From Eshraghiella crossota (lineage in GTDB: Bacteria; Bacillota; Clostridia; Lachnospirales; Lachnospiraceae), in assembly GCF_025148445.1 (NCBI RefSeq), contig NZ_CP102270.1, forward strand, positions 1,504,001 through 1,568,000: a DNA stretch of 64,000 bases, written 5' to 3'. The notes beneath the pieces are model-generated. The model did no database searches and was not told where the DNA came from. It worked only from the letters and a program-made list of their open reading frames with translations. Shown piece after piece: positions 47,399-55,561 of the stretch (position 1 is the stretch's first letter; every line of letters begins with the position of its first letter). The position numbers and the translations under genes are program-made.

Positions 47399-47428
47399 AA
47401 AAAAGGTGGAGTAATTTCCACCTTTTTT
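47399..47428 (+). terminator. Rho-independent terminator of the ABC exporter gene
   Basis: An 11-bp stem around a GTAAT-type loop (47400-47410 with 47417-47427) ends in six T. It lies 14 bases after the stop; on the minus strand the same hairpin can serve the convergent 427-residue gene. Confidence 0.88.
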
Positions 47429-47474: not shown

Positions 47475-48758
47475 TTATTTTTTATTGCAATTATCCTCCA
47501 CCACTTTAATTTCTGTCTCTGAAAGATACTTTTTCATGAAGTCAATACTTTCATCGGTAAGATATTTGGCACATCTTTTGAATTCTACTGACCAGCCCTC
47601 TACCCACAGCGAAAAAATCGGTTTAAGTTCTTCTTTTGTGTAATTTTCATTATCAAACGCAAGAATTGCACGATTGAGTAAGTCTATATATTTATCCCTG
47701 TTGCCTTCACATTTGGTAACATTACCGATACTTTCAAGTATTTTCTTAGAGCTGTTATTATTAAAAAGTTCGGGAACATTAACTATTCCGTCAATGGCAG
47801 TTTCCGCAATTTCACAGAACTCCTCTGATGCTTTAGCAATTTCACTTTGAACCTTATATGCGCTTTCAAAGTCTAATTTGCATAATTTATCCGCTGTCTG
47901 ACTAATTCTTATAATAATATTGTTAGTTGCACTTCTTGCATCAAGGAAGCCCATAATTCCAATCTTATCTTTAATCTTTTTAGGAAACAAATCCGTAAAT
48001 CGCATCCTGCTTACCGGTCTGTCAGTTGTATAAATAACAGGATTTATCTGGCTAAGTACAGAAATAATCTCCGTACTATACTCATTTTCCCTTGCGAGAA
48101 AACGCTGTAATCCTCTCCTGTTATTAATAAAAAAGTCCTCGATTATTGATTTATTCCTGATAAATTTAAGTTTCTCGTCCATTTCCGATTCATCGGAATA
48201 ATATATATCAAAATCTGCCGGAAGTTCAAATCTGGCATCCCCAAGAATCCTGTTTAGAATATCATCCTCAGTATCATACCTTGCATATAAAGCTATTTTC
48301 AGTAAAGCTTCGTATTCACCGTTCCTTAATTTTTCAATATTTTCATCTTCAAAAAACATTAAGAATTCATGCTTCTTAACGGCTTCAAAATTATAGTCAT
48401 AGTCCGTGCCTTTAAAAACCGACTTATTAAAGTCATTTGCGAAAAACAGGACATAATCCCACCTCTTGCCCGGTGCTATTTTAAGTGATTCCAGTATATC
48501 ATCTATAAGGTTTTTATAATTTCCATGCTCTGTAATAATTTCCGGCATTAAATTATATGCACTTGCGTAAGTTCCCGTAAATAAATGTTTAAATTTTTTT
48601 GTCTCTTTATATGTAAAATTTCTGTCTCCGATTTGGTATGTTCTGTTCTTCTTATCTGAACCTGATAAGCTCTTTATACTGTTGTTAAACGATGACCACT
48701 CCCTGTCATCAATAACCATATAATCATTCTTCCCACACTTTACTACTACCGCTATCAT
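47475..48758 (-). CDS. Unknown 427-residue soluble protein
   Basis: This charged protein, rich in Lys, Asp, Glu and Phe, has no signal peptide, no membrane span and no motif that I recognise. The N-terminal 50 or so residues look like a small beta domain (MIAVVVKCGKNDYMVIDD). The rest is mostly helical, with NESEMDEKLKF-type helices and LFPKKIKDKIGIMGFLDAR near residue 250. AAGGAG precedes the ATG. It stands alone between the ABC exporter and the end of the butyrate operon, so context gives no hint of function. Confidence 0.72.
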   Translation of the reverse strand: MIAVVVKCGKNDYMVIDDREWSSFNNSIKSLSGSDKKNRTYQIGDRNFTYKETKKFKHLFTGTYASAYNLMPEIITEHGNYKNLIDDILESLKIAPGKRWDYVLFFANDFNKSVFKGTDYDYNFEAVKKHEFLMFFEDENIEKLRNGEYEALLKIALYARYDTEDDILNRILGDARFELPADFDIYYSDESEMDEKLKFIRNKSIIEDFFINNRRGLQRFLARENEYSTEIISVLSQINPVIYTTDRPVSRMRFTDLFPKKIKDKIGIMGFLDARSATNNIIIRISQTADKLCKLDFESAYKVQSEIAKASEEFCEIAETAIDGIVNVPELFNNNSSKKILESIGNVTKCEGNRDKYIDLLNRAILAFDNENYTKEELKPIFSLWVEGWSVEFKRCAKYLTDESIDFMKKYLSETEIKVVEDNCNKK

Positions 48759-48840: not shown

Positions 48841-49905
48841 TTATTTATTGCTTAATTCAGCCTTTAACTGTGCTGTAAGTGCAGGAACAATCTTATTAAG
48901 ATCACCTACGATACCATAATCAGCTACATCGAAAATAGGAGCAGTCTCATCTTTGTTAATAGCGATGATGATGTCTGATTCTTCCATTCCGGCTGTATGC
49001 TGGATAGCACCTGAAATACCGATTGCAAAATATACATTAGGACGTACTGTCTTACCTGTCTGACCTACCTGAAGATCTTTTGGCTTCCAGCCGTTATCAA
49101 CAACTGCTCTTGAGCAGCTAACCTGTCCGCCAAGAACTTCTGCAAGTTCATCAAGCATCTTGAAGTTCTCTGCTGAACCAACTCCACGTCCGCCTGATAC
49201 AAGGATCTTAGCATCCATGATATCTTTGACATCAGATACAGCTTTAACAACTTCTTTAACAACAACATACTTATTGTTAGGTGTAAAACCAGGATTGAAT
49301 TCAATAACCTCAGCCTTAGCGCCTGCGATTGGGCTGATTTTCTGCATAACACCCGGACGTACTGTTGCCATCTGTGGTCTGTTATCAGGACAAGCGATTG
49401 TAGCGATTGTGTTACCGCCGAATGCAGGACGTGTCATTAATAACTGGTTGTGCTTCTGTTCACTTTCTCTACCAGGAATTGCATTAATTGGGAAATCACC
49501 GATTTCAAGTACAGTACAGTCTGCTGTAAGACCTGTTGCAACTCTTGCTGAAACTGTTGGACCAAGGTCACGGCCGATTGCTGTAGCACCGACTAATACG
49601 ATTTCAGGTTTAAATTCATTAATTACTGATGCTAATGCATGAGCATATGGTTCTGTTCTATATACTTTTAATTCAGGATCATCTACTACGATAACCTTAT
49701 CTGCACCATACTCTGCAAGAGTATCTGCAAGATTCTTTACATCTGAACCAATAAGAACTGCTGTAACTTCTGTATTAAGAGGAGCAGCTAATTCCTTAGC
49801 TTTTCCAAGTAATTCAAAAGCAATACCGCTGATCTCATTATCTACCTGCTGTGCAAATACAAAGACACCTTTGTACTGTGCAATTTCTTCTGGACTCATT
49901 TTCAT
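48841..49905 (-). CDS. etfA: Electron transfer flavoprotein alpha subunit
   Basis: This is a 354-residue FAD-binding subunit of EtfAB. The N-terminal domain contains LVGATAIGRDLGPTVSARVATGLTADCTVLE (about 101-131), and the C-terminal FAD domain contains LVSGGRGVGSAENF (about 233), VGQTGKTVRPNVYFAIGISGAIQH (about 284-307) and the closing INKDETAPIFDVADYGIVGDL. With Bcd it forms the flavin-bifurcating crotonyl-CoA reductase that couples NADH oxidation to ferredoxin reduction. It is last in the operon. Start codons at 49905 and 49899 are both possible. Confidence 0.97.
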   Translation of the reverse strand: MKMSPEEIAQYKGVFVFAQQVDNEISGIAFELLGKAKELAAPLNTEVTAVLIGSDVKNLADTLAEYGADKVIVVDDPELKVYRTEPYAHALASVINEFKPEIVLVGATAIGRDLGPTVSARVATGLTADCTVLEIGDFPINAIPGRESEQKHNQLLMTRPAFGGNTIATIACPDNRPQMATVRPGVMQKISPIAGAKAEVIEFNPGFTPNNKYVVVKEVVKAVSDVKDIMDAKILVSGGRGVGSAENFKMLDELAEVLGGQVSCSRAVVDNGWKPKDLQVGQTGKTVRPNVYFAIGISGAIQHTAGMEESDIIIAINKDETAPIFDVADYGIVGDLNKIVPALTAQLKAELSNK

Positions 49906-49927: not shown

Positions 49928-50713
49928 TTAAATGATATGTTTCTCTTTTAATTTACCAACGATGTAGTTAACTGCATCTTCAGGTGAATCAGGAGTAACC
50001 TTCTCTCCGGCACCTTTACGTACTTTATCAGATGCCTTAGCTATCTTTGTTGGTGAGCCGTTAAGACCGAGATTGCCATCTTCAACATCCTTAAGGTCTG
50101 CTCTTCCCCAAACTGTAAAACTTGTGTCACAAGCTTTGAAGATTCCTGCAGGTGTCATATATCTAGGCTCATTTAATTCAGAAAGAGCTGTTATAAGACA
50201 TGGCATTTCAGCTTCTACGATATGATATCCATCATCATACTGACGCTGTACAGTAACTTTGTTTCCATCAACTTTGATATCCTGGGCATATGAAATTACT
50301 GGAATTCCAAGATGTTCTGCTATCTGTGGTCCAACCTGGGCTGTATCACCATCGATAGCCTGACGACCTGTAATTACAAGGTCATAATCAATATTTCTTA
50401 ATGCACCGGCAATTGTTGTTGATGTAGCCCATGTATCAGCTCCACCTAAAACTCTGTCTGTAACAAGGATACCATTGTCAGCACCCATGGCAATTGCTTC
50501 ACGAAGAACATCTTCTGCCTTTGGAAGACCCATTGTAAGTACAGTAACTTCTGCTCCATACTGATCTTTTAATCTAAGTGCTGCTTCAAGACCAGCTTTA
50601 TCATCAGGGTTCATGATTGTAAGCATTGCAGCTCTGTCAAGTGTTCCATCAGGATTAAACTTAACTCCGCCTTTAGTATCAGGAACCTGCTTTATACATA
50701 CTACGATTTTCAC
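49928..50713 (-). CDS. etfB: Electron transfer flavoprotein beta subunit
   Basis: This 261-residue protein has KIVVCIKQVPDTKGGVKF at the start, the ETF-beta signature region VITGRQAIDGDTAQVGPQIAEHLGIP (about 112-137) and a C-terminal arm that wraps EtfA. In bifurcating Etf the beta subunit binds the second FAD and NADH. The start codon is GTG with AAGGAG 9 bases ahead. It lies between bcd and etfA with gaps of about 20 bases. Confidence 0.97.
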   Translation of the reverse strand: MKIVVCIKQVPDTKGGVKFNPDGTLDRAAMLTIMNPDDKAGLEAALRLKDQYGAEVTVLTMGLPKAEDVLREAIAMGADNGILVTDRVLGGADTWATSTTIAGALRNIDYDLVITGRQAIDGDTAQVGPQIAEHLGIPVISYAQDIKVDGNKVTVQRQYDDGYHIVEAEMPCLITALSELNEPRYMTPAGIFKACDTSFTVWGRADLKDVEDGNLGLNGSPTKIAKASDKVRKGAGEKVTPDSPEDAVNYIVGKLKEKHII

Positions 50714-50733: not shown

Positions 50734-51888
50734 CTATTTTAATAAATCTGCTGAGATTACCATTCTCTGAACTTCAGATGTTCCTTCGTAGATTTCTGTG
50801 ATCTTAGCATCACGCATCATACGTTCAACATCATATTCTCTGATGTAACCATATCCACCATGTAACTGTACACACTTTGTTGTAACTTCCATTGCAACTT
50901 CAGCAGCAAATAATTTAGCCTTTGCAGCTTCAACAGAGTAAACCTTCTGTGTCATCTTAGTACATGCAGCTTTGTATACTAATAACTGGGCAGCTTCAAC
51001 CTTTGTTGCAAGATCAGCAAGTACAAACTGTGTATTCTGCTGCTGAGCGATTGAACGTCCAAACTGTTTTCTCTCTTTAACGTAATCGATTGTTGTCTCT
51101 AATGCACCTTCAGCAATACCAAGTGCCTGAGCAGCAATTCCGATACGTCCGCCATCAAGAGTATGCATAGCGATTGGGAAACCTTTTCCCTGCTGTCCAA
51201 GAAGATTTTCCTTTGGAATTCTGCAATCCTGGAAAATTAATTCATAAGTAGCAGAGCCTCTGATACCCATCTTCTTTTCTTTTGTACCGAATGTAAAACC
51301 AGGTGTTCCTTTTTCTACGATGAAAGCAGAGAATAATTTTTTCTTTCTTCCCTTCTTATCTTCAACTACATCTGTTACGGCAATGATGATGTAAACATCT
51401 GCATACTTGCCGTTTGTGATGAAACACTTAGATCCGTTAAGAACCCATTCGTCTCCGTCAAGAACAGCCTTTGTCTGAACACCCTGTGCATCAGTACCTG
51501 CACCAGGTTCTGTTAAACCGAAAGCTCCAAGTTTTTCACCTGTTGCAAGTGGTCTTACATATTTTTCCTTCTGTTCCGGTGTTCCGTATGTTAAAATTGG
51601 GTCTACGCAAAGTGATGTATGAGCTGATACAATAACACCTGTAGTACCGCAAACTTTTGATAATTCTTCAACACACATAGCATATGTTAAGATATCACAG
51701 CCCTGTCCGCCGAGTTCCTGTGGAACAGGTATTCCCATGAAACCTAACTTCTGCATTTTCTCAACAGTGCCAACTGGGAACTGTTCAGTCTCGTCAACTT
51801 CCTGAGCGAGAGGTTTTACTTCATTCTGGGCGAAATCTCTGAAAAGAGATCTTGCCATTTCATGTTTTTTGTCTAAAATGAAATCCAT
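50734..51888 (-). CDS. bcd: Butyryl-CoA dehydrogenase
   Basis: This 384-residue acyl-CoA dehydrogenase has the family segments [17 protein letters not shown] (about 129-145) and [13 protein letters not shown], the FAD-site [14 protein letters not shown] segment, and the C-terminal catalytic glutamate in [16 protein letters not shown]. In fermenters it reduces crotonyl-CoA to butyryl-CoA with EtfAB. An AGGAGG box precedes the ATG. It lies between hbd and etfB. Confidence 0.96.
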
Positions 51889-51925: not shown

Positions 51926-52798
51926 TTATAAAGCATCAACTGGTGTCTTTGTACGGTCAGCATTGTATACATAGAAGCCTCTGCCACTCTTGCAGCCAAG
52001 ATTTCCACCACGAACCATCTTACGAATGAGTGGACATGCACGATACTTGCTGTCGCCTGTTTCTTTATAAAGAACATCCATAATAGCAAGGCAGATATCA
52101 AGTCCTACGAAATCACCTAATTCAAGTGGTCCCATTGGATGATTAGCACCAAGCTTCATAGCTGAATCAATTCCTGCGATATCAGAAACACCTTCCATCT
52201 TAATGAAAGCAGCTTCGTTAATCATTGGAATTAATATACGGTTAACAACGAAGCCGGCAGCTTCATTAACCTGTACAGGAGTCTTACCGATTTCTTCTGC
52301 AATCTTCTTTATTGCTTCTACTGTAGCATCAGGAGTATTTACGCCTGCAATTACTTCGATAAGTTTCATACGGTCAGCAGGATTGAAGAAATGCATTCCT
52401 ACCATTGGACGTGTAAGTCCGTTTCCGATTTCTGTAATTGAAAGGCTTGATGTGTTAGAAGCGAAAATACATTCAGGCTTAGCAATCTTGTCTAATTCAG
52501 CGAATGTTGTCTTCTTAACTTCCATATTTTCAAATGCTGCTTCTACGATTAAATCACAATCTGCGCAAAGATCTTCTTTGAGACCTGGAGTGATTCTGGC
52601 AAGGACGGCATCAACTGTTTCCTGTGTCATCTTTCCTTTTTCAACTAATTTTGCGTAGCCTTTAGCGATTTTATCCTTTCCGCCTTCAGCCCATTCCTGC
52701 TTAATATCGCAGAGAGCTACTGTGTAACCATCAACCAAAGCAAATGCCTTTGCAATTCCCTGGCCCATAGTTCCTGCACCAATAACGCCAACTTTCAT
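51926..52798 (-). CDS. hbd: 3-hydroxybutyryl-CoA dehydrogenase
   Basis: This 290-residue enzyme has the NAD-binding GAGTMGQGIAKAFAL near residues 7-21, the HFFNPADRMKLIEVI active-site segment with the catalytic histidine (about 137), GFVVNRILIPMINEA and the C-terminal DFVGLDICLAIMDVLY. It reduces acetoacetyl-CoA to 3-hydroxybutyryl-CoA. It lies 32 bases after crt and 37 before bcd. Confidence 0.97.
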   Translation of the reverse strand: MKVGVIGAGTMGQGIAKAFALVDGYTVALCDIKQEWAEGGKDKIAKGYAKLVEKGKMTQETVDAVLARITPGLKEDLCADCDLIVEAAFENMEVKKTTFAELDKIAKPECIFASNTSSLSITEIGNGLTRPMVGMHFFNPADRMKLIEVIAGVNTPDATVEAIKKIAEEIGKTPVQVNEAAGFVVNRILIPMINEAAFIKMEGVSDIAGIDSAMKLGANHPMGPLELGDFVGLDICLAIMDVLYKETGDSKYRACPLIRKMVRGGNLGCKSGRGFYVYNADRTKTPVDAL

Positions 52799-52830: not shown

Positions 52831-53661
52831 TTATTTATTCTGAAAAGGAACAACTTTTAACTTTTTTTCTTTATCTTTTTCAAGAAAGTTGCCCATACCA
52901 GCCTTTTGATCTTCTGTCTCAAAGCAGTTACCGAATAATTTCTCTTCGATTACAATTGCATTGTCCATATCTGTCTGAAGACCATCATTAATTGCTTTCT
53001 TGCAGTTACGAACTGCAATAGGCGCCTGTGCTGCAATTCCTGCAGCCATTTTCTTTGCCGCTGCTATAAGATTTTCCTGTGCAGTAGCAGTTACATTACC
53101 TGCTTCATCAACTGTAGCAGTATATACGTCATTAACAAGACCGATTCTGTAAGCATCTGTTGCTTTGATATTGCGTGCAGAATAAATCATCTGTTTTGCC
53201 ATACCGGCACCAACAAGTCTTGCAAGTCTCTGTGTTCCGCCAAAACCAGGTGTGATTCCAAGTCCTGCTTCAGGCTGTCCGAATACTGCATTTTCTGAAC
53301 AGATTCTGATGTCACAGCTCATAGAAATCTCGCAACCGCCGCCGAGTGCGAATCCGTTTACGGCCGCAATTACAGGAATTGGGAATGTCTCTATCATTCT
53401 GAATACATCATTGCCCTTCTTACCGAATGCTTCACCTTCTGCCTTTGTAAGTGTGCTCATCTCTCCGATATCTGCTCCGGCAACAAATGACTTTTCGCCT
53501 GCGCCTGTTAAAATAAGGCAACGGATTTCTGATAAATCCACACTCTTGAATGTTGCATCAAGTTCTTCGAGAACCTGGCTGTTTAAGGCGTTTAATGCCT
53601 TAGGTCTGTTGATTGTAATTAAACCAACGTGTCCTTCAGTTTCGTATGTAACGAATTCCAT
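52831..53661 (-). CDS. crt: 3-hydroxybutyryl-CoA dehydratase (crotonase)
   Basis: This 276-residue enoyl-CoA hydratase fold protein has the CoA-oxyanion segment SFVAGADIGEMSTLT (about 62-76), NGFALGGGCEISMSCD with one catalytic Glu (about 102-117), and the second Glu in FGQPEAGLGITPGFGGTQRLAR (about 126-147). It makes crotonyl-CoA. The version is slightly longer than the usual 260 residues because of a short insert around NDVYTATVDEAGNVTATAQE. A large hairpin (53693-53728) separates it from thl. Confidence 0.96.
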   Translation of the reverse strand: MEFVTYETEGHVGLITINRPKALNALNSQVLEELDATFKSVDLSEIRCLILTGAGEKSFVAGADIGEMSTLTKAEGEAFGKKGNDVFRMIETFPIPVIAAVNGFALGGGCEISMSCDIRICSENAVFGQPEAGLGITPGFGGTQRLARLVGAGMAKQMIYSARNIKATDAYRIGLVNDVYTATVDEAGNVTATAQENLIAAAKKMAAGIAAQAPIAVRNCKKAINDGLQTDMDNAIVIEEKLFGNCFETEDQKAGMGNFLEKDKEKKLKVVPFQNK

Positions 53662-53692: not shown

Positions 53693-53728
53693 AATAACTG
53701 TCATCCCTGTCAGGGGATGGCAGTTATT
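53693..53728 (-). promoter_or_regulatory. Strong intercistronic hairpin between thl and crt
   Basis: A 15-bp stem (53693-53707 with 53714-53728, one wobble/mismatch) has a 6-base loop. It begins within a few bases of the thl stop and lacks a T-run on the minus strand. It is more likely to protect or process the mRNA, or to attenuate between thl and the following genes, than to terminate. Confidence 0.7.
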
Positions 53729-53734
53729 ATTTAA

Positions 53735-54913
53735 TTAGTCACGTTCTACAACTGTTGAGCAGCCCATTCCACCGCCGATACAAAGTGTAGCAAGACCTCT
53801 CTTGGCATCTCTCTTAGCCATTTCATGAAGTAATGTTACAAGGATACGGCATCCTGATGCTCCAACCGGATGTCCGAGTGCGATTGCACCACCGTTTACA
53901 TTAACTTTATCCATATTGAAGTTAAGTTCTTTAGCTACAGCTACTGACTGTGCCGCAAAAGCTTCGTTAGCTTCAATTAAATCCATATCATCAATTGTTA
54001 AACCGGTCTTAGCAAGTACCTTCTTTGTTGATGCAACAGGTCCGATACCCATGATTGATGGATCTACTCCGCCGAGTGCTCCGGCTACCCATGTTGCCAT
54101 TGGTTTAACACCGAGTTCTTTAGCTTTTTCTTCTGACATAACAACGATTGCTGCTGCACCGTCATTGATTCCTGATGCATTACCTGCTGTAACAAATCCG
54201 TCCGGATTGATTGTACGAAGTTTTGCAAGACCTTCCATTGTTGTTCCAGGACGTGGTCCCTCATCTGTATCAACGATAACTGTATTCTTTTTAACCTTAA
54301 CTTCTACAGGAACGATTTCATCTTTAAATCTTCCTTCTTCCTGAGCCTTAGTTGCCTTAGCCTGGCTGTTTACTGCAAACTGGTCAATTTCTTCTCTTGT
54401 AAGGCCCCACTGTTCACAAATATTATCAGCAGTCTTAATCATATGGTAGTTGTTGAATGCATCCCAAAGAGCATCATTAACCATTGTATCAACAAGAGTT
54501 CCGTTGTTCATTCTGTAACCGAATCTTGCATTTGGAAGTGCATATGGCGCTCTTGACATGCTTTCCATACCACCTGCTACAACGATATCAGCATCTCCGG
54601 CTTCAATCATCTGTGCTGCCATATTAACGCAGTTAAGTCCTGAACCGCATACAACATTGACTGTTACGGCTGTTGTCTCAATTGGAAGTCCTGCCTTGAT
54701 TGTTGCCTGACGTGCAACATTCTGTCCAAGACCTGCCTGGATAACGCATCCCATATATACATGATCTACTTTGTCAGCAGGTACTCCTGCTCTGTTAAGA
54801 GCTTCTTTGATTACGATTGCTCCTAAATCTACAGCAGGAACTGTGCTTAAAGCTCCTCCCATAGTTCCGATTGCAGTACGGCATGCGCCTGCCAAAACGA
54901 TTTTCTTAGCCAT
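53735..54913 (-). CDS. thl: Acetyl-CoA C-acetyltransferase (thiolase)
   Basis: This 392-residue condensing thiolase has the nucleophile cysteine in [19 protein letters not shown] (about 86-104), then [29 protein letters not shown] with the catalytic histidine, and [14 protein letters not shown] with the second cysteine. It joins two acetyl-CoA. The open frame extends 30 codons upstream into coaD, but the ATG at 54913 has AGGAGG 8 bases ahead. It overlaps the coaD end by 8 bases. Confidence 0.97.
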
Positions 54914-55412
54914 TAGAAAAATCCTCCTTGAATATTTTCTTTTTATATTTTTCTTTAAATTTACGGGCAACAATTGGTGGTACCAGTTTCTCAACTCCGG
55001 CATTGTAAAATGCTACTTCCTTAGCAATTGTGGAACTAAGGAAAGAATATTCAAGACCGGTAGATAGGAACAGTGTCTCAATCTCCGGATCAAGACTTCT
55101 GTTAGTCTGGGCAATCTGCATCTCAGTCTCATAATCAGAAATAACTCTTAATCCTCTGATGATTACTTTTGCTCCATTCTGTCTCGCAAAATCAATTGTC
55201 ATACCTTCAAAAGTTTTCACCTCGACATTATGTAAATCCTTAACAGTCTCTCGTAACATCTCAAGACGCTCATCCATTGTAAACATCGGTCTTTTGGTAT
55301 TATTAACCAATATTCCCACAACGAGTTCGTCCACAATTCTTGATGCTCTTGTTATGATATCAAGATGTCCATAGGTGATTGGATCAAAACTCCCTGGATA
55401 CACTGCTTTCAT
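54906..55412 (-). CDS. coaD: Pantetheine-phosphate adenylyltransferase
   Basis: This 168-residue nucleotidyltransferase is the penultimate enzyme of CoA synthesis. The motif [16 protein letters not shown] is at 5-20, with TYGH for the usual [26 protein letters not shown] follows (about 87-108), then [22 protein letters not shown]. The ATG at 55412 has AGGAG 6 bases ahead; an earlier in-frame ATG lies before it. It is first behind the promoter and Rex-like operator. Its stop lies 8 bases inside thl, which makes it part of the butyrate operon. Confidence 0.97.
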
Positions 55413-55429
55413 AAGCTCTCCTGTCAACA

Positions 55430-55447
55430 TTGTTACTTTTTTAACAA
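55430..55447 (-). promoter_or_regulatory. Candidate Rex operator at the head of the coaD-thl-crt-hbd-bcd-etfBA operon
   Basis: On the minus strand the site reads TTGTTAA-AAAA-GTAACAA. The clostridial Rex consensus is TTGTTAA-N4-TTAACAA, so 13 of 14 fixed positions match. The symmetry extends outward (AACATTGTTA, 55426-55435, with its inverse at 55442-55451). It lies about 33-50 bases after the predicted transcription start. Rex represses fermentation genes until NADH is high. The same repeat could form an RNA stem; no rex gene is in the window. Confidence 0.75.
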
Positions 55448-55485
55448 TGTTTATTTATAATAATAGAAAGTTGATTTCCTGAATA

Positions 55486-55514
55486 ATAATATCATGAGGT
55501 CATATAAATGTCAA
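55486..55514 (-). promoter_or_regulatory. Consensus promoter of the coaD-butyrate operon
   Basis: Minus strand: perfect TTGACA (55509-55514), 17-base spacer, TATTAT (55486-55491). Start of transcription near 55479, giving a 5' leader of about 67 bases that contains the Rex-like repeat. Confidence 0.85.
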
Positions 55515-55527
55515 TTATAAACATAGT

Positions 55528-55561
55528 AAAACACCACCCGGAAGTATTATCCGGATGGTGT
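55528..55561 (-). terminator. Rho-independent terminator of the ABC importer operon
   Basis: A 12-bp stem with one C/A mismatch (55531-55542 with 55550-55561) has a 7-base loop. TTTT follows on the minus strand; a run of five T also follows on the plus strand. It lies 18 bases after the ATPase gene stop and insulates the butyrate promoter. Confidence 0.78.

Follow-up and report, generated by a model that had tools for sequence, protein, structure and literature searches.

The coaD-thl-crt-hbd-bcd-etfB-etfA genes of Eshraghiella crossota are very probably controlled by Rex, through a candidate operator that lies between the predicted promoter and coaD. That Rex controls butyrate genes is common; it is less common for coaD to be included and for the switch to sit past the transcription start. 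More tentatively, and with a little less than even confidence, we propose that in this genus the operator left the -35 element for a fixed position some 33 bases inside the transcript, through a two-operator state as found in one relative (G001), and would now act as a leaky roadblock, released by NADH, which ties the sole coaD copy and CoA synthesis to redox together with butyrate formation. Butyrate formation uses NADH and cycles CoA; a sole coaD gene under the same NADH switch would, if true, couple CoA supply directly to the redox state in a gut bacterium that produces butyrate. Coordinates are those of the window, i.e. the whole stretch of 64,000 nucleotides that was analysed.

The putative coaD-butyrate operon

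The genes of the putative operon are the following.

54906..55412, minus strand: coaD, pantetheine-phosphate adenylyltransferase (TIGR01510, 198 bits, cut-off 103)
53735..54913, minus strand: thl, acetyl-CoA C-acetyltransferase (passes TIGR01930)
52831..53661, minus strand: crt, short-chain enoyl-CoA hydratase (best NCBIfam match NF004475, under cut-off)
51926..52798, minus strand: hbd, 3-hydroxybutyryl-CoA dehydrogenase (best NCBIfam match NF004474, under cut-off)
50734..51888, minus strand: bcd, butyryl-CoA dehydrogenase (from context; best NCBIfam match the related acryloyl-CoA reductase AcrC, under cut-off)
49928..50713, minus strand: etfB (best NCBIfam match an EtfB model, under cut-off)
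48841..49905, minus strand: etfA (named from context alone)

Gene content and same-strand spacing, with gaps of 20-73 bases, are those of a butyrate operon (thl-crt-hbd-bcd-etfBA); the thl start codon and the end of coaD overlap by 8 bases, and the genes from coaD to etfA would be carried on one transcript. coaD is essential in most bacteria, and a single match for it was found in this genome. A 16-pair hairpin (53693-53728, plus-strand listing) lies in the 73 bases that separate thl from crt and could trim or attenuate the operon message. A further ORF of 427 residues (47475-48758), located on the same strand 82 bases past etfA, might be the operon's final gene; it is followed by a terminator-like hairpin at 47399-47428.

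Promoter, leader and candidate operator

The region upstream of coaD contains these features, in the direction of transcription.

55531..55561, minus strand: terminator-like hairpin downstream of the preceding ABC-transporter-like gene, parting that gene from the coaD promoter (hairpin and promoter search)
55509..55514, minus strand: -35 element TTGACA (promoter search and direct sequence reading)
55486..55491, minus strand: -10 element TATTAT, preceded by TG (extended -10; promoter search)
55426..55451, no strand assigned: 26-base inverted repeat with perfect 10-base arms (55426-55435 and 55442-55451) and 6 bases between them, its centre shared with the Rex box (repeat search)
55430..55447, minus strand: candidate Rex-type operator TTGTTAAAAAAGTAACAA, at about +33 to +50 (consensus and matrix matches)
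55418..55422, minus strand: coaD ribosome-binding site AGGAG (sequence)

The original prediction had described a near-consensus promoter followed at +33 to +50 by an 18-base palindrome agreeing with the Rex box at 13 of 14 positions, and direct reading of the sequence confirmed both. TTGACA-17-TATTAT ranks first among five promoter-like sites between 54900 and 55700, with 11 of 12 positions matched. The palindrome TTGTTAAAAAAGTAACAA agrees at 13 of the 14 fixed positions, i.e. with one mismatch, with TTGTTAANNNNTTAACAA, the Rex consensus of Ravcheev et al. 2012 in the form quoted in the available part of PMC5367854; among the matches listed in the coaD upstream gap, it is the only one with three mismatches or fewer. 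The numbering +33 to +50 assumes a start 7 bases past the -10 element and thus a start predicted from the consensus only. In the window the box does not overlap the core promoter (-35, -10 or start), since 38 bases separate it from the -10 element, if the predicted promoter is real.

The box directly precedes the coaD ribosome-binding site, and coaD likely starts at 55412, with AGGAG at 55422-55418, rather than at 55430, where a longer mechanical ORF begins. The perfect arms of the repeat run 4 bases past the Rex box on each side (55426-55429 and 55448-55451), an extension that is absent from the two other readable members of the genus.

Strength of the site

When the 163-base upstream region was randomised to first order, 18 of 20,000 versions had a match with at most one mismatch. 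At the genome scale the strict consensus, allowing two mismatches, hardly exceeds its control (60 versus 51 matches, forward), while TTGWTAANNNNTTRACAA with at most one mismatch is found 18 versus 7 times in forward orientation and 17 versus 5 times in reverse; 20 of the 24 other sites examined in this genome fall within a mechanically called ORF. A genome-wide consensus scan was rejected as stand-alone proof, because matches at up to two mismatches are near control; thus, the case rests on position and conservation and not on the match alone.

A matrix was then used, trained on 31 unique thl sites lacking coaD. The window site scores 15.65, the highest value in the 64 kb window (the next is 10.6), and lies within the range of the training sites yet low in it (median 19.3, 10th percentile 14.8); none of the 31 unique training sites shares its G at position 12, and a random megabase contained one site as good. 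The boxes of the congeners G001 and G004 score 18.9-21.7 by the same matrix. Scoring below the training median, the candidate in the window is probably a comparatively weak operator.

The low matrix score, together with the lack of genome-wide enrichment of the strict consensus, would also be expected if the palindrome had arisen by chance and were functionless in this species, the ancestral Rex box at the -35 element having been lost. However, the rarity of equally good matches in the random upstream regions speaks against chance, as does the position of the box relative to the -10 element, which is kept in all three readable genomes of the genus; we consider this explanation highly improbable.

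The Rex regulator

The original prediction depended on a rex gene being present in the genome, and one was found: a single PF06971 gene of 209 residues, about 156 kb from coaD. Its product passes the NCBIfam Rex equivalog (322 bits versus 233) and has both the DNA-binding and the NAD parts; the best solved relative is the PDB Rex structure 3wg9 (E 2e-74), in which the stretch RQDLNNFGGFGQQGYGYNV is the same. All 13 genomes checked contain PF06971, among them the eight in which coaD is followed by thl.

Conservation upstream of coaD-thl and thl loci

Among 111 coaD loci, many of the named ones from outside the family, 109 were retained after L022 and L023 were dropped as second views of L020 and L021. 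The order coaD-thl is found in eight genomes, three within the genus (the E. crossota genome itself, G001 and G004) and five outside it (G013, G015, G018, G342 and G273). A Rex-like box lies within 350 bases upstream in all eight of these loci at 0-1 mismatches to the relaxed motifs, which at up to two mismatches occur in 2 of 101 coaD loci not seen linked to thl, and in reversed control form in 4 of 109 coaD loci; since the relaxed motifs were written after some coaD-thl sites had been seen and the loci are related, these counts are not independent. With the strict published consensus, the eight linked loci are matched at 1-3 mismatches, versus 4 of the 101 others at up to three. One of the two unlinked loci with a relaxed match, L102 of G111, ends at a contig edge just past coaD, and in G111 thl begins at base 86 of a different contig; hence, L102 may be a ninth case of linkage. 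The palindrome expected upstream of the operon in close relatives is therefore present, and together with the rex gene in the genome these boxes support the original interpretation of the site as a Rex operator.

The box is also conserved upstream of orthologous operons that lack coaD. From 73 thl loci, which are best-scoring matches and not a random draw (G244 and G018 were passed over in rank order), four were left out for short or absent upstream DNA (L147, L148, L160 and L171) and five were set apart as coaD-linked. In the remaining 64 loci of relatives, a box with at most two mismatches within 400 bases upstream of thl is found 45 times, versus 6 times for reversed motifs. This difference suggests that Rex control of the butyrate operon is common in the family and that coaD looks to have joined that operon. 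Indeed, clostridial Rex is known or predicted to act on these butyrate genes, according to the available parts of PMC5367854, PMC9600882 and PMC8457756.

A tree of 44 of the 111 coaD loci places the eight linked loci within one clade of 16 rows (100/99), together with eight others, one of which is at a contig edge. At least four changes of linkage are required on this tree, two of them forced by well-supported branches, so that it is compatible with a single gain plus losses as well as with repeated gains. Relocation of coaD from rsmD was considered as a founding event and was not concluded: the best PF03602 match is about 50 kb from coaD, and in G035 and G352, where coaD is unlinked, coaD and the best PF03602 match are apart too, by about 18 kb.

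Position of the box relative to the promoter

The -35 hexamer (TTGACG or TTGACA, 17 bases, TATGAT or TATTAT) is formed by the second half of the box in four loci of other genera (L103, L104, L107 and L108) and in the edge locus L102; in L109 the first-half TTGATA can serve as -35. The arrangement within the genus is different. G001 has both a box on the -35 element and a second box 41 bases past the -10 element, while the window and G004 have the downstream box only, 38 and 40 bases past the -10 element, respectively. The gap of 38-41 bases is thus kept in the three genomes readable here out of five in the genus (G002 and G003 have a partial thl and gave no coaD match), and the intervening sequence differs.

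The simplest history would be that the downstream box was gained in the genus and the -35 box was lost in one or two lines. Our reading of these arrangements is that the operator may have passed from occluding the promoter to acting as a roadblock for elongation over the single coaD copy; the three readable members, with both boxes or the downstream one only, would then represent a natural series for such a change in the site of a repressor.

The palindrome could alternatively act in RNA, the rival already indicated in the original prediction. According to this explanation, a hairpin of 10 base pairs in the 5' leader, close to the ribosome-binding site, would stabilise the message or tune coaD translation, and the likeness to a Rex box would be incidental. 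The hairpin arms do reach 4 bases past the Rex box on both sides, and a 34-base stretch folds at -9.2 kcal/mol (z -3.9), a value reached by 0 of 200 shuffles; for the 81-base leader the energy is -13.4 (z -1.9), reached by 9 of 200. However, AGGAG is unpaired in the fold, and a box overlapping the predicted -35 element, as it does in the related genera, would not be part of the transcript. A regulatory hairpin should appear as a strong stem conserved in the leaders of relatives, and this was not found: at the matching boxes of G001 and G004 the RNA stem is much weaker (-4.1, z -2.6, and -2.6, z -0.9, respectively) and the DNA motif stays. Because of these weaker stems, the RNA explanation fares worse than the Rex reading and is improbable, while a secondary RNA role of the repeat in this one species is possible.

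Proposed mechanism

If the Rex reading is correct, a shortage of NADH relative to NAD+ would let a Rex dimer occupy 55430-55447 and halt RNA polymerase coming from the strong extended -10 promoter, some 33 bases upstream; transcription of coaD-thl-crt-hbd-bcd-etfB-etfA would then be poor. When NADH rises Rex would release the site, and the NADH-consuming butyrate pathway and CoaD would be made together. A roadblock formed by a weaker operator behind a strong promoter would be leaky, which could suit a sole copy of coaD.

The footprint of an initiating polymerase reaches to about +20. The box, at +33 to +50, lies past it, and for this reason a roadblock is favoured over occlusion; taken alone, the roadblock step seems to us about evenly balanced between true and false. 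The other branch within the Rex reading, which is not an additional explanation, is ordinary occlusion, either because an unmapped promoter lies nearer to the box or because Rex contacts the initiating polymerase. Mechanical promoter calls for the 45 boxed thl loci without coaD, several of them poor, put the box after the -10 element in 19 loci, overlapping the promoter in 14, upstream in 11 and without a promoter in one; 18 of these 19 boxes start 10-15 bases past the predicted -10 element, a distance at which occlusion is plausible. Moreover, in Staphylococcus aureus Rex sites are in promoters or a few bases away, as stated in the available portion of PMC2883068. Nevertheless, no other promoter-like pair (at least 9 of 12) has its -10 element between 55486 and the box, and the constancy of the 38-41 base gap in the genus also argues against occlusion, which we regard as rather unlikely here.

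Comparison with known systems

The closest parallel is Clostridium, where, as far as described in the part of PMC5367854 available, Rex acts on crt-bcd-etfBA-hbd and thl; repressor family, box and pathway genes are alike, whereas here coaD is the first gene and the box follows the predicted start site. In C. acetobutylicum rex lies beside the operon, unlike the distant rex gene found here. In Caproicibacterium lactatifermentans a Rex box is predicted before thl-crt-hbd and rex is unlinked, as here; differently from the present operon, coaD is not mentioned in the accessible sections of that report (PMC9600882). Among the matches listed on coaD, Rex and butyrate operons, no description of a coaD-butyrate operon was found in titles and abstract openings, which leaves its absence from print unproven.

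Downstream Rex sites occur in Streptomyces avermitilis, which belongs to a different phylum. At its wblE and cydA1 genes the Rex footprint is downstream of the start, as predicted here; the wblE site extends from +108 to +135, and the authors suggest that Rex so placed hinders the progress of polymerase, as given in the portion of PMC5355995 at hand, while the box type (TTGTGA) and the genes differ. A bound repressor that stops an elongating polymerase, the mechanism proposed here, is described for LacI, where readthrough depends on promoter strength and operator affinity; this is an Escherichia coli reporter system with another repressor (PMC4132739, in its available part).

Other candidate Rex targets

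By the matrix, no strong box was found at the rex locus (best score 4.6) or at four loci with Fe-ADH-family matches (best 9.5), and the genome has no PF00056 (L-lactate/malate dehydrogenase) match passing the family cut-off. A large Rex regulon was thus not supported, and the lack of strong boxes at the rex and Fe-ADH-family loci suggests that the regulon may be small.

Outside the window, a box scoring 20.3 (L139 1501-1518, G000:C1:1450077-1450094) lies some 100 bases before an mmdA-like carboxyltransferase gene (G000:1448579-1449997, minus strand). It is found in three of five genomes of the genus, namely E. crossota itself (G000), G003 and G004 (orthologs L252 and L253), and not in G001 and G002; this gene is likely a second Rex target. 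A further Rex-like box, with a matrix score of 14.4 (L136 1501-1518, G000:C1:1363938-1363955), is located between the divergent corA and acyl-CoA dehydratase activase genes.
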